From assembly GCA_026075535.2 (NCBI GenBank), contig AP026548.1:5270001-5334000 (forward strand): a DNA stretch of 64,000 bases, given 5' to 3'. Every line of letters starts with the position of its first letter. The stretch's first letter is position 1. Positions 7,223 to 56,621 of this stretch are shown in pieces. A program made the position numbers and the translations under genes. The notes under the pieces were generated by a model. The model was not told the DNA's origin and did no database searches. It saw only the letters and a list, made by a program, of their open reading frames with translations. Source of the DNA: Tricholoma matsutake. Its lineage: Eukaryota > Basidiomycota > Agaricomycetes > Agaricales > Tricholomataceae.

Positions 7223-8187
7223 GTATATATGAACTCACACTTCACTCGTCTCATTTCTCTCTATGACCCCTACTGAGACCCACCAGCGCACAACCAGAAA
7301 TTCCCAACGTGCCGGTACTATTCCTGGGATCTCTGCAATTCAGCGATCCACCCTTCCCCCAGCAGACCCAATGACCCTAGTGGTCCTGATGGCCCTGGGA
7401 GTGACCCCAATCCCAATGATCCAGATGATCAACCTCCCGCAGTGGAAAACCCTGATCCAGGGGATAGGCTCATAGATGTCCTTTACAACCTCTTGGATAG
7501 TATCCACATGCTTTGTCAGAACAATGCACCCAAGACCAAAAAAATCAAAGTTCACGACCCCGACACTTTCGACGGTACCAACCCAAAGAACTTAGAGACT
7601 TTCTAGTCTTGTGTAATCTCCATTTCTGCGACCGCCCGCACATATTTTCCTCTGATGAGAAAAAGATCATATTTATCCTTTCTTATCTTAAGGGATCAGC
7701 TCTTAGTTGGTTTGAGCCTGGTCTTAATGACCCGACAGATTCCACACACTGGATGTGGGACTATGAAGCTTTCCTCGCTAGTGTTTGAAGGTCCAGTTCA
7801 TTGAACTGGAAAAAAACCAGAATTGAACTGGACTGAACTGTGGTCTGGTCTTTTTTGCGGTTGCAGTTGCCCTCATTTTGGTACAAGGTTGGTTGCAGTT
7901 TGACATATTGTATATTTATTTTGAACCGACAAAAGTCAGTTCAAACTGGTTGCAACTGCAACCAGTCAGTATATACATTATCACAACCAGGTATTGACCT
8001 ACTAAGTATTAATGTACTATATACTATATATCATATCTATTTTACATAAAGTAAGAGTGGGTGTGCCCAATGAAAAAGTATGAAAAGCAAGGGTTTATAT
8101 ACCTTGGGTGGCGCACGGACCATTTGATCATGTTTGTGCACCAAAACAGAAAAGTGGTGCCACTCAGACACCATTCCAAACCACGAC

Positions 8188-8222
<35 letters not shown>

Positions 8223-8246
8223 ACAACACAGCAACACCACCAGGCC

Positions 8247-8267
8247 TGCGAGCCACTGCTCATTGGG
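8247..8267 (+). repeat. H1 hairpin copy, weak stem
   Basis: TGCGAGC-CACT-GCTCATT keeps the central 4-bp GAGC/GCTC pairing and the GGG tail, but the outer stem is partly mispaired. Confidence 0.4.
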
Positions 8268-8317
8268 TGAGTTGGGGTTGCTGAGGACAACAACAACTCA
8301 AACAACTGAACATAAAG

Positions 8318-8406
8318 TGAGCCGAAACGACGAATAGTGTCATTTCGGCTCAGGTATGTTTTGTTTTACTACTTATTCAACTGACTTTTTCATTTTCTTC
8401 TTTAAG
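8318..8406 (+). repeat. H2 hairpin followed by an intron-like segment
   Basis: TGAGCCGAAACGAC (8318-8331) pairs with GTCATTTCGGCTCA (8339-8352) over 14 bp with one G-T wobble. Immediately after it, GTATGT at 8354 starts a 53-nt T-rich segment with CTGAC near 8381 and a TTTAAG end at 8406, which is a plausible spliceosomal intron. Confidence 0.65.
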
Positions 8407-8476
8407 GTTCTTTCTTTTCCTGATGATGATGTCCAACTGCCAACCTCTACCCCAACACAGCACCACCACCACCCAG

Positions 8477-8498
8477 CCTGCAAGCCAATGCTCGCAGG
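8477..8498 (+). repeat. H1 hairpin copy
   Basis: CCTGCAAGC-CAAT-GCTCGCAGG pairs at 8 of 9 positions. It lies 71 nt downstream of the intron-like segment that ends at 8406. Confidence 0.6.
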
Positions 8499-8569
8499 GG
8501 GAGATGGGGGTGCTGACAGGAGAATGATGACCAGAAGAACGATGATAAGACAACTTGGAAGACGACAAT

Positions 8570-9110
8570 GATAGGATGACAATGGCAATGATAGGATGAC
8601 AATGGCAATGATAGGATGACAATGGCAATGATAGGATGACAATGACAACAACGATAGGACGATGACAACAATGACGATAGGACAACAATGACAATGATGA
8701 TAGGATGACAATGACAACGATGATAGGATGACAATGACAACAACAATAGGATGACAATGATGAAGATGATAGGACAATGAAGACAATAGGACAATGAAGA
8801 TGACAATGATAGGATGACAATGACTACAATGATACAATGACAATGACGATGGCAATAGGATGACAATGACAATGATAGGACAAAGGGACAACAATGACAA
8901 AGAGGACAACAACAACAAAGGGACAACAATGATGACAGGACAATGATGACAATGGGACAATGAGGAAAATGGGACAACAACAACCACAATGATGGGACAA
9001 TGATGATAGGACAACAATGATGATGGGGAATGATGAAGGGACAACAACAATGATGGGACAACAATGATGACAACAATAGGACAACAACAACAGCAACAAC
9101 GATGAATGAC
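8570..9110 (+). repeat. ACA/ATG-rich microsatellite array
   Basis: Over 500 bp of imperfect GACAATG, ATAGGAC and CAACAAC units. It creates long spurious open frames on the minus strand (Ser/His/Val/Ile-rich), which are not genes. Confidence 0.9.
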
Positions 9111-9141
9111 CCAGCAGCCTGCTCACCACTCACAGCCCCCT

Positions 9142-9165
9142 CCTTGCACATCCTGTGAGGTAGGG
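9142..9165 (+). repeat. H3-like hairpin, imperfect
   Basis: CCT..CACA-TCC-TGTG-AGG with a 2-nt bulge, outer C-rich/G-rich arms, then GTGTATTTTTTATTTATT. It is the last hairpin of the cassette inside the 7779-9470 element. Confidence 0.4.
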
Positions 9166-10270
9166 TGTATTTTTTATTTATTGTACTACCTATGTGCTCG
9201 CCCACAGGCCCCTGCCTGTTAGGGGCATTATCTTAGTTTTAGAATATATTATGTATATAATGTAGGTTTAGACTGACTCAAGTCAGTTGATGACTGGTTG
9301 TGGCCCAAACTGGCTGCAACTGGTTGTCAGACTGGACTGGACTGCAAAGAACCGGTTTCTTGCGGTCCAGTCTGGTTTTATTTAGTTTTGCAATCTGAAT
9401 GAACTGGTTGTGGTCCTGGTTTGCTCCAGAAATGGAAAAAAACTGGACCGAACTGGACCTTCAAACACTATTCCTCGCTGAGCTGGAAAGCAATTTTGGC
9501 CTGCATGACCCGGTCGGAGACACGGAAAAGGCTCTCTCTGACTTAGCAATGAAGAAAGGTGGTCGTATCACGAAATATAATGTTGACTTCTGGGAATTAG
9601 CTTCTAGGGTCAATTGGAATGAAGCAGCCCTTCATGACCGCTATTTCTGTGGTCTCCCGCTCTGACTTCACATAGAAGTTCTCTGGGGTGGTAAATCTGA
9701 TACTCTTGCAGAACTGCGCTTGTAAGTGCAGGACAGCAATGACATCTACTGGATGCAAGAAGATGAATCCCGCTTTGAAACAAAGAATTCCAGTAACTTC
9801 ACTAACTCTAGTCGGAAGGACACTTCCAAAAGTTCTTCCCCATCTACAAACCAATCCTCTTTGAACTCCACCAATGGTAGCACCTCCAACCAGCAGTCTT
9901 CCATGACAAAGAACACTCCCTGGGACAAGCCCAAGTTGTCCATCTCCAATCAGTTGGGGAAGAACAGCAAGCTTACTGGGGAGAAATGAGAACATCACAT
10001 GAGAGAACAACTTTCTCTCTACTGTGGTGAGGAAGGGCACATAGCAGGAAACTGCCCAAAATCCAAAGCTGCAAAAGCCTGTGCTTCTGCTGTCATTCCC
10101 AATACTATGGACTCAGAAAAATAGTCCGCAACCCTCAGGAAACAGCCATTGGGGCTGGGGGTTGCATTGACCTTACCCATTTGGCTGCCTATGTTCGTCT
10201 CAACGTGTCCACTCTTTCTGACCCTGACTCCCTAACCACTCTTTTAACCATTCCTGACAAATCTGCTCCA

Positions 10271-20890: not shown

Positions 20891-21120
20891 TTTGGGAAAT
20901 AAAATAGCTAAAATTCTGAAAATATTTGAGGACATCACATGATAAGCTAAGGGGTCCTCTGCCAACTCTAAGCGATCCGACCACCAGTTCCCATGTTATG
21001 TAAGTGGCTTAAAATGCAGCTTAGCAAGCCATAGGGCATGGCATGGATTACCCATGGTTATTTGTGGGTATTGATATGAATATGTATTTTAATAATCTAA
21101 TTACACTAAATTAATATATA

Positions 21121-21740
21121 GAAAGTGACCCCCCTCTTGCGTTTGGAGTGAGGGAGGGGGGGTGGTGCCTGTAGTCACCGAGAACAGAATGAGTAACCCC
21201 CCCCACTCACATTTGCAGTGAGAGAGGGGGGGGGGGGGGTGGTGCCTGTAGTCGTCATTTGATCCCCATTTCCACCCCACAAGCAGTTGCTCGTGGTGGC
21301 AGTTGGGGGTGCTATCATCTTGGGTCCTCCTCCTGGTCATCATTGTCATTCCACCCACTATCCACCCCATGAGCAGTTGCTTGTGAGGCTGGGGCAGGTG
21401 GTGTGCCATTGTGACGTGGTGGCGTTGGCATGGTGTCGTTCCATGTGAGCTTATTCCAACATAGGAAATGAAAGAAACAAACAAAAGAAAAACTTACTGT
21501 GGGTGACATGGCACCATTGGGTGTGTGTCGTTAGCTGTCGTTGTCTGTCATTATCAGTAGTTTAGAACCTGAAAAAGAAGAAACATAATCAGTTAGTTTA
21601 CAAAAAACAAGAAATGAAACACAAAAACACTTACTATAGGCCCAAACAATGATTCATGTTGTTTGTGGCCATTGTGGTTGCTTACTCATCATCCTTGCTC
21701 CCCGTTTCCACCCTGTGAGCAGTTGCTCACAGTGGTGGTT
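21121..21740 (-). repeat. hairpin cassette (H1, H2, intron-like, H1, H1, H3, H3)
   Basis: Read on the minus strand, the order is as follows. H1 at 21732-21713 (perfect 8-bp CTGTGAGC/GCTCACAG stem). H2 at 21670-21639 (GGCC(A)CAAACAA with TTGTTTGGGCC). An intron-like segment at 21634-21569 (GTAAGT, AAACTAACTGAT, TTTTTCAG). H1 at 21385-21368 and at 21296-21277. Two C-rich/G-rich H3-like hairpins follow, about 21232-21196 and 21160-21125, with long poly-G runs. It encodes no convincing protein. The same order occurs in the hAT-type elements at 7779 and 24561. Confidence 0.65.
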
Positions 21741-21939
21741 GGGGGTGCTATGGTGGTGGTTGGATCGTCCTATCATTTAGAATTAGACGTGTCATGAGTA
21801 ATCAACAAGGTCAGATGATCACTCACCTGACCAAAATCTGGGTACTGGCATACCTGCACATACCCGTAACACCATGGAAAAGGGTACGGTGTTGCCCAGG
21901 TATGGCAATCCCATACCCATACCTGTGCCGTGCCCTAGC

Positions 21940-22418
21940 TAAGGCAAGGCAGGGGTAGGGGTATACCCTTGTGTTTTTGGGCTAAGGGTATGAGGGGTAA
22001 GGGTAGGGGTTTGGAAGTTCATACCCTTGCATACCCCTGTACCCTTACTAAGGGTACAGGGGTATGCCAGGGGTATGCTGATGTAAGAATATCATTTGAT
22101 TTTTTCAGCTACAAAGACTCATATTCAAGAATTAAATTCAGATTTTGGGATTGTCCAACATGATAATGGCTTTCATATGTTAAGAGGTATTAATATGTGA
22201 TATTAATAGTAAATACAATAGTTATCAACACTTTTCAAATGAATTTTGCTCTAAATATGTTGATTTTGTGCCAAACCCTTGTACCCTTGACAAACCCTCT
22301 CATACCCTTGGCAACCCTTATATGTTTCCAGACCCTTACCCCTAAGGGTAGGGTGTTCAGGGGTAGGGGTAAGGGTATGAGATTTGACACCCAGGGGTAA
22401 CCTTGCCCTAAATCCAGT
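21940..22418 (-). mobile_element. hAT-type MITE inside gypsy A integrase region
   Basis: The minus-strand start TAGGGCAAGG is at 22410 and the other end, TAAGGCAAGG in plus reading, is at 21940. It is a near-identical sister of the MITE at 48260-48733. The target copy AATCCAGT (22411-22418) is present on one side only. On the other side the sequence runs after 2 bp into another TAGGGCACGGCACAGG-type end, so the distal gypsy A sequence has been lost or replaced. Confidence 0.8.
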
Positions 22419-24327: not shown

Positions 24328-24560
24328 TCACTCATGGGTATCAATCACAATCTGTTCTGATGAAAGAAATGGCATTCCTAATATAATGGGGAATGATAAT
24401 CCCTTATTTACTTTTATCTTGTGGACTCCTGATTTCCATATCCCCTGGTCTGATTGCAGCTCTAATTTGACATACTCCTCACAGTTGATTCTCTGCTGGG
24501 TCAACAATGACATGTTATTTTCCTTTTTTGGGAGAGGATAACATTGGAGGCTGAGATGCT
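24328..24560 (-). pseudogene. gypsy A protease segment
   Basis: The frame reads LSLQCYPLPKKENNMSLLTQ, INCEEYVKLELQSDQGIWKS, and FPIILGMPFLSSEQIVID. The ILGMPFL block is the conserved C-terminal part of gypsy proteases. The catalytic DSG side lies beyond the hAT-type insertion at 24561 and is decayed. Confidence 0.65.
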
Positions 24561-24754
24561 CAAGGCCTTTACACTCCCCCACCTTTCCTAGTGGACTCCG
24601 ACTGGAGTCCACTGGGACTGGTCACCAGCCAACTGCCTGCAAAGTTGCCAGTCCAGTCCCAGTCCAGTCCAACTGGACTCTGAGTGGAATCCACTCAAAC
24701 ACCGGATTTCACTCGGACTAGTCCAGTGGAGTCCAGTCAGATTCCGCTGAAAAA

Positions 24755-24845
24755 GTGGGTAAGAAAAGGAATTGAACCCAGATTCCTGTAGGTTGCTTAC
24801 ATAATTATAATATGCAATATAACCATTACACCACAGTACCTTGTG
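24755..24845 (-). repeat. tRNA-like Pol III box sequence (SINE-like)
   Basis: Minus strand: A-box-like TGGTGTAATGGTTA (24833-24820) and B-box GGGTTCAATTCC (24779-24768), with an A/B spacing within the normal range. No good cloverleaf. It lies just inside the left subterminal repeats of the hAT-type element. Confidence 0.5.
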
Positions 24846-24932
24846 TAAGGTATCATCTATTTGCATTAGGTACTGTGGTGCGGCTGTGTATGACAAAGCA
24901 TATAGCTGCATCATCAAATGTGCCAGCTCATC

Positions 24933-24981
24933 ACTCACCACCACCACCACCACCACCACCACCACCACCACCACCACCACC
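24933..24981 (+). repeat. CCA trinucleotide microsatellite
   Basis: About 15 consecutive CAC/CCA units. They generate homopolymeric frames that are not genes. Confidence 0.95.
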
Positions 24982-25099
24982 GTCGATGCCGCGTCCCTCC
25001 TCTCTGCTCTACCACCACCACCACTGCATGGACACCCACCACCACTGCTCCCACGCCCAATCTGCCATCACCACCACCCGCAAACAAGCCGACTGGGAG

Positions 25100-25470
25100 G
25101 GCCCTACGTAAGTTTTTTTTTCGTCTGCTTCTTGTTTTTATAAACTAACTAACCTGTTTCCTTAGCTTTCTAGGTAATAATCTACTGGTAATGACACCAC
25201 CACCCACAAATGAGCCAATGTGGGCCCACATAAGTTTTTTTCATTTGATTTTTGATTTTATAAACTAACTAACTCGTTTTTCTAGTTTTCTAGGTTATAA
25301 TCTACTAGTAATGACACCACCACCCACAAACGAGCCAACGTGGGCCCAAACGATGCAGATTGCATCATTTGGGCCCTACATAAGTTTTTTTCATTTGATT
25401 TTTGATTTTATAAACTAACTAACTCATTTTTTTAGTTTTCTAGGTTATAATCCACTAGTAACGACACCAC
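25100..25470 (+). repeat. three tandem intron-like units
   Basis: Three units of about 120-150 bp each contain a (GT/AT)AAGTTTTTTT start, ATAAACTAACTAAC and a TTTCTAGG end, then CACCACCCACAAA(C/T)GAGCCAA. Only the first keeps a GTAAGT donor. The other two have lost the donor G (CATAAGT) but keep the branch and acceptor. This looks like a tandemly copied intron plus exon piece. Confidence 0.75.
25342..25376 (+). repeat. H2 hairpin, 15-bp stem
   Basis: GGGCCCAAACGATGC pairs with GCATCATTTGGGCCC around AGATT; 14 Watson-Crick pairs and one G-T wobble. It is followed by TACATAAGTTTTT, the third intron-like unit. Confidence 0.8.
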
Positions 25471-25504
25471 CACCCACAAACGAGCCAACACACCCACCCC
25501 ATGC

Positions 25505-25524
25505 CTACGAGCCCCTGCTCGTAG
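25505..25524 (+). repeat. H1 hairpin, perfect 8-bp stem
   Basis: CTACGAGC-CCCT-GCTCGTAG, followed by GGTGGATCATGAGTG. Confidence 0.8.
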
Positions 25525-25822
25525 GGTGGATCATGAGTGTGTGCAGTCGACAATGACAATGATGATGCCGCCTACCAGCACCAGGACCCAGAACGACCCA
25601 GACCTGATGACACCCATGCCACCTCCTTCCCATCCAAACAGGATGTGAGGGTGTCGATAAAGGATAGGAGATGGCAGAGGGGTACCGAGAGACCTGTGGA
25701 GCAGGATACCCACCTGGTAAGCACCCACCTACCCCCTCCCTCGCATGCCACATTACTGACCCCTCCCCCCAACCCCTCCAAACTAGGAGACCCACAAAAC
25801 CAACAACACACCCACCCCATGC

Positions 25823-25842
25823 TGACGAGCACCTGCTCGTTG
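25823..25842 (+). repeat. H1 hairpin
   Basis: TGACGAGC-ACCT-GCTCGTTG pairs at all 8 positions with two wobbles, followed by GGTGGATGGTGGGT. Confidence 0.75.
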
Positions 25843-25895
25843 GGTGGATGGTGGGTACACCAGGGCTATGACCACCATGGCACCCATCCCCATGC

Positions 25896-25915
25896 CTACG
25901 AGCCTCTGCTCATAG
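25896..25915 (+). repeat. H1 hairpin
   Basis: CTACGAGC-CTCT-GCTCATAG pairs at 7 of 8 positions, followed by GGTGGATGATGGGTG. Confidence 0.7.
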
Positions 25916-26005
25916 GGTGGATGATGGGTGTGGCTTGCTACAGCAATGGACGCGTGCGAGGAGGGGTGGGCGATGACACCCACCCCAGACTGCATCCCCC
26001 AACCC

Positions 26006-26199
26006 CCCCTCCCCATGCAAAATGCAGGGGAGGGGTCTTTATTATTTTTAATTTATCTCTGCCCTCCCCCTCACACTGAATGCGAGGGGTTTAGTTTTTT
26101 ATGTACATAGTCATAATCCCCCCCCTCTCGCATCTTGTGAGAGGGGTTTTTTTTGTTTATTATTATATTATACCCACTCCCTCGTGTCCTACATGAGGG
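26006..26199 (+). repeat. four successive H3 hairpins with T-rich tails
   Basis: The hairpins are 26006-26035 (CCCCTCCCC(A)TGCA with TGCAGGGGAGGGG), 26067-26089 (CCCCTCACA with TGCGAGGGG), 26122-26146 (CCCCTCTCGCA with TTGTGAGAGGGG, followed by eight T) and 26179-26199 (CCCTCGTGT-CCT-ACATGAGGG). T- or AT-rich DNA follows each one. Confidence 0.7.
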
Positions 26200-26305
26200 A
26201 TGTGGTTAATTAAAATTTTTTGATCTTAATTGTTTGAAAAATGCCTCCTCGAAGAATATGAAAAGTTGAGTCATAAATAAACCTTATATTGATTTCTAAT
26301 AAATC

Positions 26306-26395
26306 TCCTGTGGCTCAAGTGGTTGAGCACACTTGTTTGGTTTGTCATGTGATTCCTTATGGTGAGGTCTTGAGTTCAATTCCTGCAGTACACAA
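26306..26395 (+). repeat. tRNA-like Pol III box sequence (SINE-like)
   Basis: A-box TGGCTCAAGTGGTTG (26311-26325) contains a pairing D-arm GCTC..GAGC. B-box GAGTTCAATTCC lies at 26372-26383. No convincing acceptor or anticodon stem. It lies near the right end of the hAT-type element. Confidence 0.5.
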
Positions 26396-26614
26396 ATTTA
26401 TTTTGTGGGTACTTTATGAAATTCACCAAGTCCAAAGTCCTTTGAGCTCGTATCTAATTGACTTATCATTTGGTTGAAATGCATTCCACTTGGACTCCAG
26501 TGGGGGATTGAACTCTACATGACTTAGTGTAGTTCAATTGACTCCACTCGGACTCCAGTCAGTCTGGTCGGAGTCCACTAGGACAGGTGGGGGACTGTAA
26601 AGTACTGAGATGCT

Positions 26615-36138: not shown

Positions 36139-36950
36139 TACAAACTTCCTCAAAACTCTGTATCCACTTCTCAAAACTATCATCTATCGTCTATCACCTC
36201 TTGAAACTTTTGTACATTGTCATCATTTATCTCCATCACTCTTCGACAATATTCCCATCTTCTAAAAGCCTCTTGAAACTACTTCAAACTTCTTTGCAAC
36301 TCTTTGGAGACCTTCATACACCTTTGTACCTCTTTCGACATTGTTCACCGATCCCTGGTTTATTGCGGTGATATTTAGTACCACCTCCCAACCTTCCTCT
36401 AACTTGTGTTATACCATTCAAAGCCATTTTGTGGGTTTTTTTGGGTTTCTGGGTTGAGTATCATCAACAGGTATTAGTGCCTAAAAGTCCAGTCCCATGG
36501 ACCAAAAAAAGACCAGGAACTGAACTGGACCTTAACTGACATAACCAGACTTTCAGTCCCAGTTCAACAGCCTTGTAGGGTGGTTCAGTCCTCAGTCCTC
36601 ATTTTTCTGGCACTTACTAGGACTGTGCATGACCAGTCTGGACTGGTCAAAGACCAGACTTATAGCATACACATTGGAAGAAGCCTCATAGTCATTAAAA
36701 TCAACTACCTCACTGCATCAATCACTGTCCAGCAATTACCAGAACAAGTGATCAACACCTTTGATGGACGCACATACACTTTCTGGCTGCCAACTCACAC
36801 TTCCCTTCATGCTTCCCTTCATGCATCCAGCCTTTGTGGCCTTCAATCTAATAAAGTAAGTCTTTTTGTTTGTTGTTCACAACTGATTTGTGTATTTATC
36901 AGACATTTTGCTGTAAAGATGTGTGTGCCACATCACACTAAGTGGAACCG
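36139..36950. other. mostly unassigned; possible left end of another hAT-type element
   Basis: At 36477 a TAGTGCCTAAAAGTCCAGTC end resembles the hAT family above but has no identified partner. No convincing gene. Confidence 0.35.
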
Positions 36951-36988
36951 CCCAAATGACATCTGTCATCGTTTGGGTCCCAGGTAAG
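36951..36988 (+). repeat. H2 hairpin abutting a splice-donor-like GTAAG
   Basis: CCCAAATGA pairs with TCGTTTGGG, with an inner TGACA-TC-TGTCA. CCCAGGTAAGT follows. The copia element is inserted in this GTAAG. Confidence 0.65.
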
Positions 36989-37293
36989 TGTTGGAGCAGA
37001 CTATATACGCTGCACAGGGGAAGAGACTACACGTTCCTTACAACCTACCTGGGGTTTAGTTAGACTTACAGCTAGGGTTAGCAGAGGTAAGAACACTGTA
37101 TTCCTACTACGGTACAGGTTCTCCTTATATACATAATATTAAGGATGTCACATGACTCGGGAATGTGTTTACCGCATGTATGCACAGTAAGCGCAGTAAC
37201 ATGCGTATGCTGCATGTATCGCCTCATGTATACATGTGTATGCTGCATGTATTGCCTCATGTATACAGCATGCATCAGGGATTAATTTCAACA
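36989..37293 (-). repeat. 3' LTR of copia
   Basis: Minus strand TGTTGAAATTAATCCC to CTGCTCCAACA; the ends are TGTTG and CAACA. Identical to 42423-42727. Confidence 0.95.
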
Positions 37294-37304
37294 CCCCCCC
37301 TCAA
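37294..37304 (-). other. polypurine tract of copia
   Basis: On the minus strand GAGGGGGGG directly precedes the TGTTGAAAT start of the 3' LTR. Confidence 0.8.
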
Positions 37305-37325
37305 ACTGTACAGCGCTCTAAGCAG

Positions 37326-40300
37326 CTAAGTTTGAATCTCGAAAGTAATTCCGAGAGAGTCTCTAAATTTCCTGAATAGGACGGCGCCAAGGTTCTTTGT
37401 GAACATGTCAGCCGGATTATCACTTCCAGGAATGAAAACGACTGTGACTTTGTCATTTTCTATGCATTCGCGGGTGTAGTGGTAGCGAATGTCTATATGT
37501 TTGGTCCTTCTTTCCTGAACTGGATTTGATCCAATAAAGATGGATCCTTGATTATCAGCGCAGATTGGTACGCGCTTCAGTGTATATCCAAGTTCCTGGA
37601 ATAAGGACTCTATCCACACTATCTGCCGACAAGTGTCGGAGAGAGCCATGTATTCGGCTTCTGTGGATGACAGTGCTACAGTTTTTTGTAAACGGGACTG
37701 CCAGCACACAATGCCACTCGCCAGAGTAGCAAAGTAACCCGTTGTAGATCGGCGCTTGACTGTGTCAGCTGCCCAATCAGAATCTGTGAAGGCCTGTAGC
37801 CCCTCGGATTTCTCTCCATCATAGACCATACTGTACTTCTGGGTTCCCACCAGATAGCGCATTATGTACATCGCTTTGTCTAGATGTTCTTGGCTAGGAT
37901 TAGCCGAGAATTGCGACATCTTGATTACCGCGTAAGCGATATCAGGTCGCGTTCCGAGCATCAGATACAATAAAGATCCGATCACAGACTGATATTTTGA
38001 TCTAAGCGCCGCGTTTGGCGTCGCTGTGTTCTCCGACGGTTTGTAGCCAGTCGGGAGCGGAGTGGGGGCAATCTTGGCATTTGTCATCTCGAACCTCTCA
38101 AGCACTTTGGCGAGATATTCTGTTTGATCGAGTTTGACTTTTGCAGCGGTCTGGGTGACGCGCATGCCTAAGAATTCCGTGACTTTTTCAGTACTACGGC
38201 ACTCCCAATGCTTCAGGCAAGCATTCTTCTTTTCATCCACAAGTTTCTTGTTCTTGCCCATGAACAAGCCATCATCAACATAGACTAGCGCAATAACGAT
38301 GCTGCCTGTCTTAGGATCCTTGTGTATGAAGATGCCGGCATCGGAGCTGGCGCGCACGAACCCAATGGTGCGCATAAATGCCTCTAGCTCTCTCCACCAT
38401 GCTAGTGAAGCCTGTTTAAGGCCATACAATGCTCGGCGTAAGCGCATTACTTTGCGCTCTTTACCCTCGAGTTTGAAACCCTCGGGTTGATCCATATAGA
38501 TCTCCTCATCAAGTTTGCCGTATAAAAATGCGGTTTTTACATCTAGACCGGTCATATACATGCCTTCTAGAGACGCAAGGGCAAACATGAGGCGTACGGT
38601 CTCATAGCGGACTACTGGTGAGAAAATCTCATCAAAGTCAATGCCTTCGACTTGTGAAAAGCCTTTGGCCACGAGTCTGGCTCGTTTTCTTCCGTCCGAT
38701 TTCACAGAGAAAACCCATCTATTTTTGATCGTTTTTCGATCATGTGGAAGATCGACGATGTCATAGACTTGTCGCTTGCGAAGAGCCTCTAACTCTTCAC
38801 GACAAGCTTGTTTCCACTCAAGTTGCTGCTGCCGGGGTAGGCGCGCAATATCGCGAAATTGGTTTGGAACTAGGCTTTTTCCGCTTGATGGTGTGACTGC
38901 TTTTGACAACAGCCAGCGGATAAGCTCATCTCCACCTTCCTTGGTTATCTTTTTAATATAACCTGCTTCGTCCGGTTCCCCCATTGGGTGATCATGTTCT
39001 TGATTATTGGAATCGGGCACACTCTCGTGGGGTGCCGAACTCGGTCCAGCAACCGGTTCTTGCTGTTGAGGTCGTGGTCGTGTTCGGTTATGATCCGAAT
39101 CTTGACCCACAGACTTCTTCCAATATCGATCACGCGCAATGTCTCTCTCTATGTCAGAGGGGAGTCGCTGTTCTCCATAGGTATTGCCGGGACGGTTTGG
39201 GATTTTCCTCTGCCTGCCTGATCGACGGGGCAATTGCTGCCATTCCTGTTGATCTTCACGTCTTGGACGAAAGTCCTCAGTGTTAACTGGAGGCGGCGGA
39301 GGAGGAGCGTTAGTCGCATCGTCATGCGCCTTTTGCTCGCTTGGTAAATCATCATCATCATCTTCTGATGATGGAGGAAGGGGCGGATTTTGTGGCGGTA
39401 TAGGGTCATCGCCATCCGTTCCAGATGAGTGGTCGTCATCTTCTGGTTCTGGTGGAAAATCACCAAGGTCTGTCTTGGCAGGAGTTTTAGCTCCGGGACA
39501 GCATGGGAACATCGTTTCATCAAATAGTGCCGTAGCACCAATGAATATTGCGCCGTTTCGTCGCATGAAACGATATGCTTTAATGCCATCTTCTACTCCA
39601 AGGTACGTCATTAGCTCCGATCGAGGAGACAATGTTGTTGGACGTTTTTCCTTTGGTAGATAGACATAAGCACCGCAACCGAAGACCTTCAGATTGTTTA
39701 GATCTGGGCGGACCTCTGTCAGGTCCTCAAAAGGTGTCAGCCATTTCAGGCGCCTTATTGGGGTTCGGTTGTATAAATGTGTTGCATGTTCTATGCAAAA
39801 TTCCCACCATGATTGTGGTAGACAAGCGGTGAATCGCAGGGTTTGCGACTTTTCCATTATTGTCCTTATGGCGCGCTCTGCGCGCCCGTTCTGTTGATGA
39901 ACGTGGGGTGCAGACATCTCTATTTTGATGCCTAAATCCTTGAGCTGTTTTTGTAGCTCACGATCCTTGAACTCCCCCCCTGGATCAACACGCCAGCGCT
40001 TGATTGTAGCGCCATATTGGGTCTTAGCCATTGCTAGAAATTGTCTAATCGCTGCAGCAGCGTCAGATTTCTTTCTGAGACATTGGACCCAAATATGTGA
40101 CGTTTTGTCATCCAGAAATACAATGAAGTATTTATGTTTGTGGTACGATAGTACCGGGAGTTCCTTTAGGTCGGAATGTATTAATTCAAAGGATTTGTCA
40201 GCTCGTGAGTCTGACTCGGGAAAAGATTTTGAGGTCATTTTCCCTTCTGCACACCCTGGACATATAATTTTGTCTTTAGGAATAATTAAATTCCTTGGGA

Positions 40301-42173
40301 ATTTTATGGTGCTTTTAGGCATTTTCCCTAGCGCCTCTTTGGATGGGTGTCCAAGTCGCCTATGCCAAGTCAAGTAGTCAGCGACATAAATGGTCGCGAC
40401 ATTAACCTTTTTGGTGCTCAATATATGAGTCCGAGCCCAATAGATCGTGTCATTCCTCCTTAGAGGGACACAATGCATGATTGGGTTTCCATGCTCGATG
40501 AATGAAATGTATGCGGAGGAACCACGCACATCACTTCCGTCTTGTAAAAAGACCCCCATTGACATCAATCGAGTATTAATGTCGGGTATGTAGTAGACGG
40601 GGTATAGTCGCGTTTCACGCGTCTCTGACTTCCCATTACATACTACCTGGTGCCTAATGAAGACTGCTCCTTTTCCTACTATATGAGTAGTACCAGTGGC
40701 TGTTTGGACCAAGGTAGAGTCCTTTCTCGGTAAAGGCTCATAAGAAGCGAAATCTTTCATTTCACCAGTGAAGTGTTTTGATGCGCCTGAATCTATGATC
40801 CAGTCGGCACCTTTCTTACAATCTCCCTTTGCACACATAGCACATATATTAAGATCTACATAATTCCATGATACATTTAATAGCGGTAAAATTTCACATG
40901 AAAAGTTCGCTGTATTCATAGGAATTTTAATCTTAGTGCTTGTGGCAGGGAAAAGGACTGACCTGTCATCATACGCCCCTGTGTCAAGGGGTTCATCGAC
41001 GAGCATTTCGTCGACGGCTTTCCACACTTCCTCGTCAGTTACTGGAGGTTCGGATCCGAGGGAGACGGTATCGTCTTCTACCTCCTCGATCGTAGCCTCG
41101 GTTTCTGGCTCTATCCTCCTTCTCTTACCTTCTCGCACCGTAAGGTGCTCTTCCAGCGGTCGCAGATTTTTCGCGGTGCGCGGAAGTTGCATGCGCTCGA
41201 GGGTGTCTCGAGCTTGCTGATATTCAGTGTAAACCGAACGAGAAGAAGAGGCCGCGCCCGTATATGCCTGTGCAGGCGGTCGGCGGCGAGGATCCCTTGT
41301 GGGAGTGTGTTCGCGTCGCTCGATGCGCTGTATGAGCGGCATCGGCGGTATGATGGTGCCATTACCATTTATGGTGGTAAAGGCGTTGGAGGCGAGGTGG
41401 GTATGTTTCTCTTTTGGCTTCTCCTCCTTAGTCTTTCTATCCCCACGTCGTCCACGTTTTCGGGACGAGTCTCCGTTGCTGTTTTGCCCTTCTTTGGGCT
41501 GCCATTTGGGGTTTCCCCCCTTGCGCTTAACGGCGGAAAGTTTGTTGGCCTGAGGCTGGCCAGCGGGCTTTCCAACTGCTGTGCGCCTTGAGGCTTCAGC
41601 AACAATGGAGTCCTTGACATGTTTAAATGTCAAGGCGCTAGTGGCGGTCGTGTTAAGGACCGTTGCAGACAATGAGTCGTACTCGCGCGGCATCGCAGCA
41701 AGTAGAATCATCGCCTGTACTAGCTCGGGGATGGCGACGTTAGCAGCCGTGAGGCGCTCAAATTTGTCAGCCATTCTCGCAATCTCCGGTGCAGGGTTCG
41801 CAGCCGGGATTTTGATTGCTATTGCGGACCTAAAGTCCGAAAAGACTTGGGAGGGGCCGTCCACACCATAATCGGTGCGGATGAGGTCCCACACCTCCTC
41901 AGCAGTGTCCTTTGTGTTGGCACGCTGCCGAATGGAGGGGGCCAGGCGGAGCACTAGGCTACCAATAGCCTGGTCATTTTTGTTGCTCCAGGTCTGGAGC
42001 TTGGCATTAGCGTTCGTCGCCGTCAAAGGAGGCGCCGGGGGCGGTTTTTGCTCCGCCCCGCTAGTTATTTGCCAGAGGCCCTGAGACCTGAGCCACGCCT
42101 TCATAGAGTCGGCCCATAAGATGTAATTTGATCCGTCGAAAGTTTGAACGAGTTTTTCAAGAGTTGAAGACAT
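37326..42173 (-). CDS. gag-pol: Ty1/copia gag-pol polyprotein, 1615 aa, intact
   Basis: I chose the ATG at 42173 (MSSTLEKLVQTFDGSNYILW); the frame is open 11 codons further upstream but without an ATG. Order: a UBN2-type gag domain (residues about 1-230), then a basic linker rich in Lys/Arg. The protease reads DWIIDSGASKHF (Asp about 461). The integrase zinc domain is HRRLGHP..CPGCAEGKM, and its core has HSDLKE, VDPGGEF and QQNGRAERA (first Asp about 667). RT has LVAKGFSQVEGIDFDEIFSP and YVDDGLFMG (about 1296). RNase H has FTDSDWAAD and SSTEAEYMAL (about 1463) and ends ADMFTKNLG. All catalytic residues are present, with no stop or frameshift. A canonical CCHC gag knuckle is not obvious. It would be translated from the full-length element transcript and processed in cytoplasmic particles. 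Confidence 0.97.
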   Translation of the reverse strand: MSSTLEKLVQTFDGSNYILWADSMKAWLRSQGLWQITSGAEQKPPPAPPLTATNANAKLQTWSNKNDQAIGSLVLRLAPSIRQRANTKDTAEEVWDLIRTDYGVDGPSQVFSDFRSAIAIKIPAANPAPEIARMADKFERLTAANVAIPELVQAMILLAAMPREYDSLSATVLNTTATSALTFKHVKDSIVAEASRRTAVGKPAGQPQANKLSAVKRKGGNPKWQPKEGQNSNGDSSRKRGRRGDRKTKEEKPKEKHTHLASNAFTTINGNGTIIPPMPLIQRIERREHTPTRDPRRRPPAQAYTGAASSSRSVYTEYQQARDTLERMQLPRTAKNLRPLEEHLTVREGKRRRIEPETEATIEEVEDDTVSLGSEPPVTDEEVWKAVDEMLVDEPLDTGAYDDRSVLFPATSTKIKIPMNTANFSCEILPLLNVSWNYVDLNICAMCAKGDCKKGADWIIDSGASKHFTGEMKDFASYEPLPRKDSTLVQTATGTTHIVGKGAVFIRHQVVCNGKSETRETRLYPVYYIPDINTRLMSMGVFLQDGSDVRGSSAYISFIEHGNPIMHCVPLRRNDTIYWARTHILSTKKVNVATIYVADYLTWHRRLGHPSKEALGKMPKSTIKFPRNLIIPKDKIICPGCAEGKMTSKSFPESDSRADKSFELIHSDLKELPVLSYHKHKYFIVFLDDKTSHIWVQCLRKKSDAAAAIRQFLAMAKTQYGATIKRWRVDPGGEFKDRELQKQLKDLGIKIEMSAPHVHQQNGRAERAIRTIMEKSQTLRFTACLPQSWWEFCIEHATHLYNRTPIRRLKWLTPFEDLTEVRPDLNNLKVFGCGAYVYLPKEKRPTTLSPRSELMTYLGVEDGIKAYRFMRRNGAIFIGATALFDETMFPCCPGAKTPAKTDLGDFPPEPEDDDHSSGTDGDDPIPPQNPPLPPSSEDDDDDLPSEQKAHDDATNAPPPPPPVNTEDFRPRREDQQEWQQLPRRSGRQRKIPNRPGNTYGEQRLPSDIERDIARDRYWKKSVGQDSDHNRTRPRPQQQEPVAGPSSAPHESVPDSNNQEHDHPMGEPDEAGYIKKITKEGGDELIRWLLSKAVTPSSGKSLVPNQFRDIARLPRQQQLEWKQACREELEALRKRQVYDIVDLPHDRKTIKNRWVFSVKSDGRKRARLVAKGFSQVEGIDFDEIFSPVVRYETVRLMFALASLEGMYMTGLDVKTAFLYGKLDEEIYMDQPEGFKLEGKERKVMRLRRALYGLKQASLAWWRELEAFMRTIGFVRASSDAGIFIHKDPKTGSIVIALVYVDDGLFMGKNKKLVDEKKNACLKHWECRSTEKVTEFLGMRVTQTAAKVKLDQTEYLAKVLERFEMTNAKIAPTPLPTGYKPSENTATPNAALRSKYQSVIGSLLYLMLGTRPDIAYAVIKMSQFSANPSQEHLDKAMYIMRYLVGTQKYSMVYDGEKSEGLQAFTDSDWAADTVKRRSTTGYFATLASGIVCWQSRLQKTVALSSTEAEYMALSDTCRQIVWIESLFQELGYTLKRVPICADNQGSIFIGSNPVQERRTKHIDIRYHYTRECIENDKVTVVFIPGSDNPADMFTKNLGAVLFRKFRDSLGITFEIQT

Positions 42174-42410
42174 GATTCTGTGGTGGCAGCTGTTAAAAGC
42201 GCTCAATCAGTCTTTTTACTCAATAAAACACGTTTAACGTTCTCAGGAGAAAACACTCCTTCAGAGTGATTAACCCTAGTCAACCTAGGTTTTATATGCA
42301 GCTCGCAGGGAGCGCAATGCAGCTCACGAAGAGCGCAAGGTTATAATTTGGAGACGATGAAGTCAACGTCGTTCGCAGCTAATTAAAGCGCGTTCGCGAC
42401 GTGCCCAGCA

Positions 42411-42422
42411 GGGCCCATAACC
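42411..42422 (-). other. copia primer-binding site, half initiator-Met tRNA type
   Basis: The plus strand GGGCCCATAACC sits directly at the LTR edge and equals the anticodon arm of eukaryotic initiator Met tRNA. On the minus strand it is the complementary primer site. Internal priming by a tRNA half is known for Drosophila copia. Confidence 0.75.
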
Positions 42423-42727
42423 TGTTGGAGCAGACTATATACGCTGCACAGGGGAAGAGACTACACGTTCCTTACAACCTACCTGGGGTTTAGTTAGACT
42501 TACAGCTAGGGTTAGCAGAGGTAAGAACACTGTATTCCTACTACGGTACAGGTTCTCCTTATATACATAATATTAAGGATGTCACATGACTCGGGAATGT
42601 GTTTACCGCATGTATGCACAGTAAGCGCAGTAACATGCGTATGCTGCATGTATCGCCTCATGTATACATGTGTATGCTGCATGTATTGCCTCATGTATAC
42701 AGCATGCATCAGGGATTAATTTCAACA
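42423..42727 (-). repeat. 5' LTR of copia
   Basis: 305 bp, identical by eye to the 3' LTR. Confidence 0.95.
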
Positions 42728-42732
42728 GTAAG

Positions 42733-42989
42733 TTCCTTCGAAACTGCCCTTTTTGTTTTTTATTACTAACATTCCTACTTAGTGATGACATATCATCCAC
42801 ATCCAGCCTCATGAGCCACTGCTTGTGGGGTGGATCGTGGGTGCTATGTTGCCAATGATGCCAGCAACAACAATGATGACAGGTACAACAAGAACAACAA
42901 TGACAACAACAGGGATGGATGACAAGGACTACAAAGATGAGGACAAGGACTGCAAAGACAAAGACAAAGACAACAAACAACAACATCAT
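42733..42989 (+). repeat. remainder of a hairpin cassette split by copia
   Basis: Continues the intron begun at 36984: T-rich DNA with ATTACTAACATTCC and CTACTTAG (about 42730-42782). Then comes H1 at 42810-42827 (CATGAGC-CACT-GCTTGTG, paired with wobbles, followed by GGGTGGATCGTGGGTG) and an ACA/GAC-rich tract. With the copia removed, H2, intron and H1 are contiguous. Confidence 0.65.
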
Positions 42990-50154: not shown

Positions 50155-52243
50155 GCCTCTTAAACGTGCACCCATTCACATCTTTCACAGTTATAGGGAT
50201 CCTGGAGGTGCCAGGACCTATTTTCTTCTTCTAACCATAGGCCACCCTGTGAGCTGCTATAGACTCATCAAGTGTCTTTTCCCCCATACCACTGCCAGAC
50301 TTTATACAATACTCAATAGTATGCCCAGTCTTTTAGGGTTACTACAAAGGAGTCCATTAGATGGCCTGGTCAGTTTATCACAAGTGACAGGTGCAACTGA
50401 GGGATGAAAGTCATTTCACTGGTTGTTCTCAAGAAGGGACTGCTTGTTCTCCAAGAATTGATGGATTTTTAAGGAAGTGTACAGTGATGTATCAGTGGAA
50501 GCTGCAATATTGCAGGAGATAATAGAACAAGCATGGGGAAAATGTTTATCAAGGGAGTTTAGGAGCACAATACAACAGAGATTGGCTTTCATGTCCCCCA
50601 TGGCAAATGCACATTCAATGAGGGTGCAGATTTTATCAGTAGTCTTTGGGAGGGGTATCCTTTGTGCACTGAATGGAAAGGGCCTGCTGTAAAAGTTGAA
50701 CCTGATGGACAGGTCCCTCCTTCTGATGGTGGACCTGGAGTGTCATCCAGTGGACACTATGTCCCTTTGACATGTCAAGGAATGGGTGCTCAGAGGGAGC
50801 AACACTAGATGCTATGAATGAGTGAGGCACAAGTTGGCCTTGTAGTTTGTGAGAGCACAGGGCCAATAGCAATTTCTCTGCACCATTCCTTGTAGTTGGA
50901 TCTAAGTTTATCAAGCTTCTCCCCAGCATATTGAGTGGAGAGCCTGATGAGGGAAATTGATGGGGTCATGGATTCAGACATTGTAGTTGATTCAGTCATC
51001 ATAACTGTAAACAAAAGTCTGCTTGATAGAGTGGCAAGGGTTTGTGTATGTAGTGACACCATGTGCATCAGAAGGTTGGTCACACTCAAAGAAAAATCCA
51101 TGATCCATGATGGAATAGAGTGATCCAAAAGTGGTTGATCAAAGGTACAAGATGATGTATGCATCTAGTCTGGATTAATTGGCATGCATCCAAAGGGTGC
51201 TCTTTTCAGATCACATGTTGGCATGTGTTGATTTCCCTTTTATGGTCATCTGGCTGGGCACATCTCTACCAAAACCTCTTGAAGGGCACTGCAATCATAT
51301 ATGAACTGTATTATTAGCAGGTAGATGTTTTCCAAAGGTCTAGATAGTGGTAAATATCCTCGCAATCACACAAAACAGTAAGAATTCATAGGAGGCTCCA
51401 TCACATGACTGAGATTCAGGTGTCAGTGACTGGATTGTGTCTTGAGCTCTAATGGGGCTAAATATTACAGGGTGGCATATTACCAGAGGGCCTTAGTGTG
51501 AAATGCAGAGAACAGTGTGGAATTTGTCCTTTCAACCCATCAACTGTAGGGATGTGGCTGAAAAAGGAAATTCAACATGTGCCTTCATGTGCATCGGAAA
51601 GAGCAGGCTTCTGGCTGTGCCAATTAAATCAGACTACAGTTGAAATAGATCAACTGTCATCTACATCATTGTTGTCTGACTATGGGAGACTAGTATGCAT
51701 TGAGTGGCTAGGTGATTTCCACCATTGTTTCTAACAACGAGTGATCCTAGTGTAATCAAAGTCTAACTACTTATAAGTACAGTAAGTAATAATCCACATC
51801 AGCAAAGTCAGATTTATTCCCATGGCAATCTATAGCACACATAGCAAATGCGCCAAATGACATAGTGCCCATAGTGCCCATAATGATGACAGTGCTCAAT
51901 ATAGCACTACCTAGCATTTACCCCTTTTAGATTCTAGGAACCACTGCTGTTCCACCACAAAGAATCATGGGAACTAAACTTTCTGGCCAAATTGTTTCCC
52001 ACAATTTGATTTTGTGAAGTTGAGTAACCCTGCCCCAATGTCAAGTCACATGTATGTTGAATTTGATAGAAAATTGTCAAGCTCAGCATTCCCATCAACC
52101 TCATCCTTCCTGTCCACTCCCCTCTCTTTGTCTCATCAGACATCTGCTGCTGCCTCCCTCTCTCTGTCAGGGCTCTACCACTACCACCATCCACCACTGT
52201 GCTTGCACATGGTGGCAAAGATGTTATTTCAGATGCAATGGAG
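50155..52243. other. largely unassigned DNA
   Basis: Only short frames. At 51498-51734 (+) a reading with REQCGICPFNPSTVGMWLKK recalls the GIxPFNP block near the C-terminus of pogo/CENP-B-type DDE transposases, but no catalytic region was found upstream, so it is at best a relic. Nothing else recognised. Confidence 0.35.
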
Positions 52244-52283
52244 GCCCAAATGATGTCTACCATTGTTTGGGCACTAGGTAAGC
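52244..52283 (+). repeat. H2 hairpin with splice-donor-like sequence
   Basis: GCCCAAATGAT pairs with ATTGTTTGGGC over 11 positions including two wobbles. ACTAGGTAAGCC follows, with the donor-like GTAAG at 52278. Confidence 0.65.
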
Positions 52284-52799
52284 CATTTTTTATTTGCTTT
52301 GTGTTCTTATCATCTAAATAATTGCCTTCACTGGGTGCAAGGCACAATACTGCCTGCAAGGTACTGTGAAAGTATCCTGACAGTATTCCTAATATTGTTA
52401 ACATACTTCACTAGAAGTATTTTGGCAGTATTGTACTATATTTTGATAGTGCTGAAGGTACTGAAGTAGTATTCTAGATTGGTATGCATACTGGCAAAAT
52501 ATCCCTTGGTGAGTATGGTGGCAGTATTAGGAGTATTTCCAGAATACTCCTTCTCAGAAGTATCTTACTGTCCAGCCAGTGCTTACTTCTCTTTTTAGGA
52601 TGTAAGCTACTCACAACAACAACCATGGATGCGAGACAACCCATGCCCAATTATGCCCAATCTACAACCTTTCTCCCCCTTCAAATGGGACCTCATTTAT
52701 GTCTAGGAGACCAAGTAGCAGTGCTGGGAGAGCCAGGTAAGCCTCCCCTTGAACCCATTTCAGTGCCACAACACAGCTATCCCACTACAAGGCCCAACA

Positions 52800-54660
52800 C
52801 CTGCCCCTATGCCTGCGAGCTCCCTCTCACTTCATGCATCAGTGGTGGCTCAGTGCTGGGAGCCATGTATGTCCCACCCTAATCCATTGCCTGCCACATC
52901 ACAACTTACCCCCCTCCCCCCCCCCCCCAAAAAAAAAAATAGGAATTGTTCACCATGACACCCAGCTCCAGCCCTTATGCTTGCGAGTTCCTGCTCACAG
53001 CATGTATTGGGGTGGTTGCCCAGTGCCAGGAGTCAGGTAAGCATCCACCTGAACCCACCACTGCACCATGTCACAACTAACCCCCCAAAAAAACAGGAAT
53101 CACTCGCCATGAGGCCCAGCACCTGTCCCCATGCCTGCAAGCCCTGCTTGTGGCATGCCTCACTGTGACAGCAGTATCTAAAGGTAAGACAAGACCAGGC
53201 AACCTCCCAGCCTATGTAACAACAGCGATCAATACAGCACCCTCAACATGGGCTGCACAATGTGCAGTGATGCATGTCCCACAGAAATCATCCCTGCTGC
53301 TGCCATGCTTACGAGCAACTGCTTGTAAGAGTGGGCCATAGGTGGTAGCTGTCTGCAAGAAGTGGAGTTGATGACACAGTCCTGTCCCCCTGCTTGCCAG
53401 GTCAATTGTGTGAGTTTCATTAATGGATAGATATTAACTTAATAGAGTAGACAATACAAGTATAATAGATAGTAATATAATATTGTGGAATAGATTTTTG
53501 TTTCACTCATGATGCCTTGAACATATTGAACATAAAATAATTGTAAGATTAATAACAGATTTTTGTTGATAGAACCTAGTTACAAGTCCGAGGTACGAGG
53601 ACTCATCTTTATAACCCGGCAAACATGCCATCAAAATACAGGTTTAAGTGTGGTGCCAAATAAGCTTTCTTTTGAAAGTCAGCCCCTACAGATTTTCAAG
53701 GTCAGCGGGATCTTCCGACATGCGGATTTTGGACCCAAAGGGAAACTAAGTCCATGAGGTTCACTCCAACTACCAGCAACCACCACTCCATCTCCACCTG
53801 CCATGACTCCCATGCACACTGCTACAACAGCACCCTAGGGTAAGTTTTTTTTTCCTTCATTTTTTACTCAACTAATTAATTGTTTTTCTGTGTTATTTAG
53901 GAACCAAACTCCATCTCATGAAGGGTCTCAACGTGAACCAAGCCACCACACCAATGGCTGCCAAATCTCCCCTCCCTGTGCAAGCAGGATATGAGGGTGT
54001 TGATAAGGCTCGGGAGCGAGCAGGGGGATGCTGGGAGACCCCACAAGGGGATACCCACCCGGTGAGCACCCACAATACAACATCAGACTCAAACGAGCGC
54101 CATGTACCCAGGATGATGAGGAATAGACCCAGGACCCCATGACAACAACAAAATGAAGAAGCCAGCACCAACACCAGCAAAGGCACCAGCACCAGTACAC
54201 CCAAACAACTGGAATCAACCCTGCAGGCCCCAGCAACACCCAAACAAGGCACCAAGGTCCAACCACAGCAACGAACGACACACCACCTGCCTCCAGCCCC
54301 ATGAGCAACTGCTCGTGGGGTGGATCATGGGTGGAATGACAAGACGATGGGGCTGCCACAACATCATGGGTGAACAGAGGAGGCAACAGACGATACCTAC
54401 CAATGACACCAATGCTGCCAACACACAACCCCAACATACAACTCCATGACGATGATGAATAGCCCCAGGACCCCACAATGATGATGACAAAATGATGACA
54501 TCAGTACTGACACCAGCACCAGCACAAACAACAACAATGCCAGCACAAACAACGATGTGAACAATGACAACAACAATGATGGGGAGGCCATTAAATGATG
54601 CCCATGATGACCAGCACCCCCTCCCACTGCTGCAAGCAACTGCTTGCAGGGTGGAGACAG
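52800..54660 (+). repeat. cluster of H1 hairpins and intron-like segments
   Basis: H1 copies: 53308-53329 (CTTACGAGC-AACT-GCTTGTAAG, 9 bp), 54297-54320 (CCCCATGAGC-AACT-GCTCGTGGGG, 10 bp with one wobble) and 54630-54649 (perfect CTGCAAGC-AACT-GCTTGCAG). Degenerate copies lie near 52816, 52981 and 53136. An intron-like segment runs from about 53839 (GGTAAGTTTTTT) through ACTAATTAATTG to a TTATTTAGG end at about 53902. The DNA between is CCA/ACA-rich, with no persuasive protein. Confidence 0.65.
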
Positions 54661-54889
54661 GGTGTGAGAGGCAAGGAGATGGAGAGTGGTGGCAACAGCA
54701 GCAACTAGCCTAAGGGACATTGTCGACGTCTCTTGGGCTGTTGATGATGCTCAACCTGGAAACCCAAACAAAACCCACAAAAAGGCTTCAGATGGTATAA
54801 CACAGGTCAGAGGAAGGATGCAAGGCCCTCTAGATGTCACCTGTCAGATCGACTGTCAAATAGTCATAAAAGGACTGCTTGTCAAAGCA

Positions 54890-56160: not shown

Positions 56161-56354
56161 AATTTTAGGTACTAACTACTACTATGACAACTGGTGCCCA
56201 CAACAAGGAGCGGCACCCCAAGATTGTGGGTGCTAGCACTTGAGGATGATGCCAGCATGCCCAAACAACTGCAGCTGACCCAGCAGGCCCCAGCACCAGT
56301 GGAATGACAACAATGGGTTTGACTACCACAAACAAAGCACCGTCCACCTCCAGC

Positions 56355-56376
56355 CTTGTGAGCAACTGCTCATGGG
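56355..56376 (+). repeat. H1 hairpin copy
   Basis: TTGTGAGC-AACT-GCTCATGG pairs with several wobbles, followed by GGTGGATGGTGGGTGG. It lies downstream of a T-rich stretch ending TTTTAG near 56168. Confidence 0.6.
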
Positions 56377-56621
56377 GTGGATGGTGGGTGGAACAGCGAT
56401 GACAGTCAAGGGGGAAGGGAGGCAATGCTGACAGGGAGACCACCTGGGGGAATGAGGGGGAGGGGAGACGGTGGGGAGGGAGAATGACAATGACAATGAC
56501 ACTGCCATGCTGGTTCCAAAAAAATGTATTTGCATTTGCATGTAACAGTAGTCATACAACCCCAAGAAATACTATATCTTGTTACTAAGTGTTCTATAAT
56601 TATGAATTAATTTTGAATATA

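Follow-up and report, generated by a model that had tools for sequence, protein, structure and literature searches.

Results

Hairpin cassettes in the window

The stretch of DNA analyzed here, which we call the window, spans 64 kb of Tricholoma matsutake (C11:5270001-5334000) and contains elements in which three types of hairpin and intron-like segments form a recurring cassette (Table 1). H1 is a hairpin of ~55 nt, H2 is a hairpin of 29-35 nt with the intron-like segment starting a few bases after its end, and H3 is a GC-rich hairpin with T- or AT-rich DNA after it. The original prediction placed such a cassette at 25.3-26.2 kb, at 8.2-9.2 kb, at 21.7-21.1 kb on the minus strand, and at 36.95/42.8 kb, and its recurrence at all four loci was confirmed by reading of the sequence and by covariance models. 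At each of these loci, the hairpins lie on a single strand.

Table 1. Cassette-bearing elements and their parts, in window positions
Feature	Position	Strand	Remarks
Class C element	7779-9470	+	TIR TAGTGTTTGAAGGTC; exact target duplication TTCCTCGC; layout H1, H2, intron-like, H1, simple sequence, H3
TATATA box, class C	8096	+	
H1, class C	8229-8293	+	
H2, class C	~8318-8352	+	
Intron-like segment, class C	8354-8406	+	Read from sequence; 5′ site adjoins H2
H1, class C	8463-8523	+	
H3, class C	9136	+	
Class D element	21032-21937	-	Termini TAGGGCACGGCAC...; layout H1, weak H2, intron-like, H1, H1, H3-like x2
H1, class D	21750-21685	-	
Weak H2, class D	~21670-21639	-	
Intron-like segment, class D	21569-21634	-	
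H1, class D	21403-21339	-	
H1, class D	21311-21253	-	
Class B element	24561-26606	+	2.05 kb; termini CAAGGCCTTTACACTCCCCCACC...GGTGGGGGACTGTAAAGTACT; holds the 25-kb cassette of the original prediction
Target duplication, class B	24553-24560 and 26607-26614		GAGATGCT; register ambiguous by one base
Two further intron-like units, class B	Starts 25108 and 25230		
H2, class B	25342-25376	+	Intron-like segment 3 nt further on; fold z -6.1
Intron-like segment, class B	25380-25443	+	CTAACTAAC; T-rich; TAG
First H1, class B	25487-25552	+	Covariance model and fold
Second H1, class B	25805-25870	+	Covariance model and fold
Third H1, class B	25878-25943	+	Covariance model and fold
H3 x4, class B	26005-26200	+	T- or AT-rich DNA after each
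Class F copy, left half	36423-36988	+	H2 ~36950-36979 with 5′ splice-site motif
LTR element	About 36984-42732		Splits the class F intron-like segment at 36989-42727
Class F copy, right half	42728-42976	+	Intron-like remainder to 42782; H1 42791-42856
Further cassette-like parts	52236-54677	+	H2 52236-52289, H1 53291-53357, intron-like 53840-53900
Further H1, 52-56 kb region	54281-54346, 54612-54677	+	
H1	56338-56403	+	Intron-like 3′ end upstream at ~56168 (by eye)

In the class B window copy, the 5′ site of the intron-like segment that follows H2 is AT, not GT. Its four H3 were recognized by eye, two of them (26005, 26062) also by a pattern scan, and of the two H3-like hairpins in the class D copy, one was found by pattern scan and one by eye. 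No target duplication was seen for the window's own class D copy, of which L056 and L057 are fuller copies, and a search for the true ends of the class F copy did not find them. The original prediction that this fourth locus is split by an inserted element proved correct: the insertion is an LTR element with identical 300-bp ends and a 5-bp duplication, GTAAG, which lies in the 5′ splice-site motif, and the relative L081 is uninterrupted.

Several other features were observed in the window. The H1 model matched an additional H1-like hairpin at 2840-2906 (E 2.4e-5) as well as the one at 53291-53357 (E 2.7e-7). Outward-pointing tRNA-like stretches lie close to each end of the class B element, one at 24757-24840 on the minus strand, which ARAGORN calls tRNA-Tyr(ata), and one at ~26302-26400 on the plus strand, seen by eye; ARAGORN made no tRNA calls in 18 other loci. 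A GGGTA-rich high-copy repeat at 21937-22413 abuts the class D copy; a query containing it gave 4,090 first-look candidates in the genome, and a 49-bp palindrome within it occurs a second time at 48601.

Hairpin models and genome-wide spread

The covariance model for H1 was trained on 42 copies, all from class A/B loci, and it detects the class C, D, and F copies of the window at E values of 2e-6 to 7e-20. The H2 model, which includes the 5′ splice-site motif, gives E 1.3e-4 for the hairpins at 8313 (class C) and 21623 (class D), E 1.9e-6 for that at 52236, and no better than E 0.06 for that at 36945 (class F). Models trained on A/B copies therefore recover class C and D hairpins, a recurrence beyond chance. 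Fold z-scores of 16 window hairpins range from -1.5 to -6.7, the weak ones being H1 at 8229 (z -1.5) and H2 at 36945 (z -1.7); among nine H1 folds of real copies, two are weak (L040:1809, z -1.4, and L034:1556, z -1.4 with a different fold). The outer stems of H1 differ in sequence among classes and keep their pairing.

The genome searched comprises 161,040,721 bases in 13 contigs; the accessible part of one report gives 161,040,721 bases as the total for the T. matsutake TMA_r1.0 assembly (PMC10627285). An H1 core pattern has 2,495 exact matches in it, and its reversed control has none; such pattern counts are totals, with positions listed for about 100 of the matches. Hairpin counts skip the duplicate or overlapping loci L001, L017, L028, L030, L039, and L055.

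The order of hairpins originally described is seen at the four window loci. Overall, the arrangement is better described as a grammar than as a fixed order: H2-intron units may repeat, and H1 may precede or follow them (L034, L018, and L038 have their detected H1 ahead of a detected H2). H3, which was compared by eye and by regular expression only, was found by pattern in 8/8 class B, 4/6 class C, and 2/3 D-type loci and in only 1/7 class A loci. The DNA between hairpins, described originally as unrelated, is unrelated between classes and related within a class.

Termini and target duplications of the carriers

The cassette is common to three terminus classes, A/B, C, and D, whose termini are unrelated by inspection, and the elements that bear it make up several non-coding, hAT-like families of DNA transposons with inverted termini and 8-bp target duplications. 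For class A/B, 18 of the 38 loci examined (L001-L038) yielded both ends and represent 16 distinct elements. An 8-bp duplication is present within one mismatch in 13 of these 16 (10 exact and 3 with one mismatch, among them L007, where it is a base out of register), and it is absent in the other three (L002, L004, and L012). All nine class C copies shown, of 16, have a duplication within one mismatch, six of them exact. Class D termini are TAGGGCACRGCACGGG, and the D-type elements L056, L057, and L034 have exact 8-bp duplications, the search having asked for exact ones alone. Exact terminus patterns number 1,651 for A/B, 1,266 for C, and 896 for D genome-wide.

Inverted termini of the kind that mark non-autonomous hAT elements were thus found in classes A/B, C, and D. 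SINEs are without inverted termini and have a variable target duplication and a simple 3′ tail, and the inverted termini and 8-bp duplications do not agree with such elements. The best reading is that the cassette carriers are non-autonomous hAT-like elements. A free-standing mobile hairpin unit, one of the two origins offered originally, is not borne out, as what moved are whole elements that have inverted termini and are flanked by 8-bp duplications. Because three unrelated terminus classes carry one layout, the cassettes are also not one ordinary repeat family, the outcome named at the outset as fatal to the cassette idea.

Among the matches listed on contig C1, nine class C end pairs are just 443-444 bp apart and form a very uniform short family. 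In L074, a class B-type H1 array lies inside a D-type element whose H1 point the opposite way; this is probably one cassette-bearing element nested in another, and the outer duplication is exact (CTTGCAAT). The accessible part of an earlier genome report puts repeats at 71.6% of the T. matsutake genome and unclassified repeats at 25.4%, or 40.9 Mb (PMC10211490).

Splice-like signals and orientation

H2 palindromes were gathered by their own sequence (GCCCAA...TTGGGC) without use of the splice sites, which gave 51 in 32 loci, with L077-L081 left out of the count. A 5′-splice-site motif lies beside exactly one side of 47 of the 51, beside both sides of none, and beside neither side of 4, and random 13-nt stretches contain the motif in 145 of 4,260 cases (3.4% per side); because the copies are related, these and the following counts are not independent. 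The one-sided motifs start with GT in 28/47 and with AT in 19/47. Class C H2, which have different stem ends, show a one-sided 5′ motif in 16/16 copies, and GGGTTTATATAC is kept in all 19 class C loci tested.

H1 points in the same direction as the splice motif in all 43 scorable cases. A branch-point-plus-AG motif accompanies 43 of the 47 one-sided H2, compared with 519 of 4,260 random stretches (12%). The T content is 60% over the 40 bases that follow the 5′ motif, compared with 13% over the 40 bases upstream of H2.

Covariation and strand asymmetry

Pairing in H1 was examined within class A/B (alignment A1, for which 42 of 51 candidates were kept and 9 were removed by eye because they probably overlapped or lay beyond the element) and across classes (A3, for which 43 of 58 were kept after removal of 9 antisense or false and 6 gapped, truncated, or decayed sequences). 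In A3, with 43 sequences and 11 pairs, 93.7% of cells are paired and the covariation score is 0.335, compared with a mean of 0.239 after shuffling, the relatedness of copies inflating H1 scores of this kind. None of 500 shuffles reached the observed paired cells, both-side-changed cells, or score, and 28/500 and 22/500 reached the numbers of both-side-changed pairs and of further pair types, respectively. Restoring the six decayed rows (A4, 49 sequences) gave 92.4% paired cells and a score of 0.329 versus 0.233 when shuffled, with 0, 0, and 0 of 500 shuffles reaching the cell values and score and 53/500 and 50/500 reaching the pair counts. Within A/B (A1), paired cells, both-side-changed cells, and score beat all 500 shuffles, and 435/500 shuffles reached the number of both-side-changed pairs. 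Covariation of H2 within A/B was not above shuffling.

G-U cells outnumber A-C cells by 53 to 21 in A3, 47 to 13 in A1, and 41 to 26 in the H2 alignment (A2), an excess that the patterns used to find copies could bias in the H1 sets. In the non-CpG portion of A3, the numbers are 14 and 7 (p 0.19). A larger H1 set (n = 194) gave 131 versus 93 summed, with the G-U excess confined to one pair, and H2 hits (n = 91, of which 18 by eye are not H2) have 80 G-U and 79 A-C cells. The folding energy of the 194 H1 does not favor the plus strand, being lower on it in 86 and higher in 106.

Coding potential and known RNAs

The class B window copy contains a 180-codon open frame with a GTG start (25537-26079). 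Stops interrupt it in 14/14 aligned relatives and frame-shifting gaps in 13/14, with 3 of the 14 aligned over part only and no gap correction in the stop counts. With no conserved reading frame in the class tested, B, we rejected a coding cassette. Rfam 15 gave no match over the gathering score in the 64-kb window; on the class B element, there were 13 sub-threshold matches with E values up to 5, the best being 0.0062. The titles and abstract openings returned by literature searches held no description of the hairpin-intron cassette layout.

Coding relatives and the search for a transposase

L073 is a 3.97-kb element with D-type termini and an exact target duplication (CATTTGCA), and it contains coding pieces that are hAT-like. 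Dimer_Tnp_hAT is matched by one stretch over positions 2-50 at 38.1 bits, over the cut-off, and by the adjoining open piece over positions 46-83 with 17.8 bits, which is under it. The cassette-bearing L034 has terminal stretches of 136 bp (77%) and 102 bp (70%) in common with L073, the one case, D-type, in which ends are shared with a hAT-bearing element. In L073, the covariance models detected neither H1 (at E 0.01) nor H2 (at E 0.1).

The few candidates read for classes A/B and C yielded no relative that bears a transposase. L071 was rejected as an autonomous class C element: its outer class C element has a perfect target duplication (GTAACAGC), and its coding part seems by eye to be bounded by separate inverted termini (TAAGGCTCCAACCATT) and is therefore probably a nested element. 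This nested hAT candidate extends on the minus strand from 673 to ~4284, and no target duplication was seen for it. L072 is a class C element interrupted by other sequence. L077 was picked for a hAT domain close to a class C end; it proved to be a class C element that had inserted next to an unlike hAT piece (duplication CTCATTGC). Of the long A/B end pairs among the matches listed, L075 and L076 were read and proved to be ~2-kb elements with nested insertions, the 10.9-kb and 3.5-kb pairs being left out. KDZ-type transposases are abundant in the genome (165 matches among 150 scored candidates); no link between them and the termini of the cassette elements was established.

Discussion

We hold with moderate confidence that the cassette is the conserved interior of several non-autonomous hAT-like families and that it most likely carries a gene for a spliced non-coding RNA. 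The same module in DNA transposons with unrelated ends suggests a common spliced, folded RNA, and the one-sided placement of splice sites, the co-orientation of H1, and the covariation of H1 fit a structured RNA as judged from sequence. A structured RNA gene spread as a passenger was the other origin offered in the original prediction; unrelated-ended carriers, one-sided splice placement, and H1 covariation support it in part, and "passenger" is a fair word because L073 has the ends of one class and no cassette. The intron-like segments are recognized by sequence signals, and we infer transcription, splicing, selection on the RNA, and a benefit of the RNA to the element.

A promoter, represented by the TATA box in class C, would drive the non-coding RNA gene. 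The RNA would have a T-poor leader, then exons ending in H2 at the 5′ splice site, followed by one or more H1 and often an H3 near the 3′ side. The elements would move as DNA with transposase supplied in trans, and the RNA gene would occupy the transposase's place and be kept, or swapped, as the ends changed. As guesses, the RNA may aid the element through transcript protection or export, or it may bind transposase or components of silencing. With H1 and H2 constant in type and placement between different ends, two histories would fit: fast evolution of the ends around an inherited unit, or exchange of the unit among families. A bolder version, which we offer tentatively and regard as possible rather than probable, is that a selfish spliced structured RNA gene was passed among unrelated hAT families, replaced their transposase, and was the source of the elements' success.

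The hairpins might instead act as DNA, either as palindromes for a transposase or host protein or as cruciforms, with the splice-like segments incidental or left over. The equal folding of H1 on either strand, the symmetric decay of mismatches among H2 hits, and a rearranged class C copy with breakpoints inside H1 would all suit such a role, but the one-sidedness of the 5′-splice motif, the invariable co-orientation of H1, and the frequency of the branch-point-plus-AG motif argue against it, and outer H1 stems that vary by class yet pair suit structure better than a bound sequence. We therefore regard a DNA-level role as unlikely. We also doubt that the cassette is a relic, in which the introns and untranslated regions of an ancestral transposase gene would persist by common descent in deletion derivatives and template switching, not selection, would keep the palindromes perfect. 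The TATA box and intron-like layout do resemble gene flanks, and in L071, hAT-like coding pieces sit within a class C shell; however, the coding part of L071 is probably the nested element described above, L073 has D-type ends and coding pieces without H1 or H2, and the ends are wholly different while H1 and H2 are not, the opposite of the usual pattern. That the cassette encodes a small protein, with hairpins as a by-product, would draw on the 180-codon frame, but this frame is broken among its relatives and the H1 spacings in class A (93, 90, and 70) are not all multiples of three, so we give this explanation very little credence.

As carriers of a putative spliced RNA gene, the cassette elements can be compared with known systems. 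Like non-autonomous hAT elements and hAT MITEs, they have TIRs, 8-bp target duplications, no transposase, and high copy number; unlike hAT MITEs, they are 0.9-2.3 kb long and have a conserved internal module common to families with unrelated ends. In introners, DNA transposons are linked with small spliceosomal-type introns, whereas the intron-like segment of the cassette is a small internal unit and not the whole element. OMEGA/Fanzor guide RNAs are structured non-coding RNAs on DNA transposons; in comparison, PF07282 (Cas12f1-like_TNB) had no match in the T. matsutake genome at E 0.001, a search that could miss a diverged fungal Fanzor because its positive control genomes were prokaryotic. 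Pack-TYPE transposons, as described in the accessible part of one paper, are non-autonomous DNA transposons with internal sequence other than transposase (PMC8903248), and to that extent the cassette elements resemble them; unlike theirs, the cassette cargo is non-coding and identical in kind across several families.

The ends of MITEs are normally their conserved part, and non-autonomous DNA transposons are thought to retain little beyond their ends. The cassette elements show the reverse, a conserved interior between ends that are not conserved. Should the module be a functional RNA, it would be a route by which elements without a protein profit from RNA; natural variants of a single hairpin would then be available by the thousand in one assembled genome, and hairpin-adjacent splicing and the co-evolution of transposon and RNA would become testable. 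If the module has been passed between families, it would be a "passenger RNA" longer-lived than the ends of its carriers.
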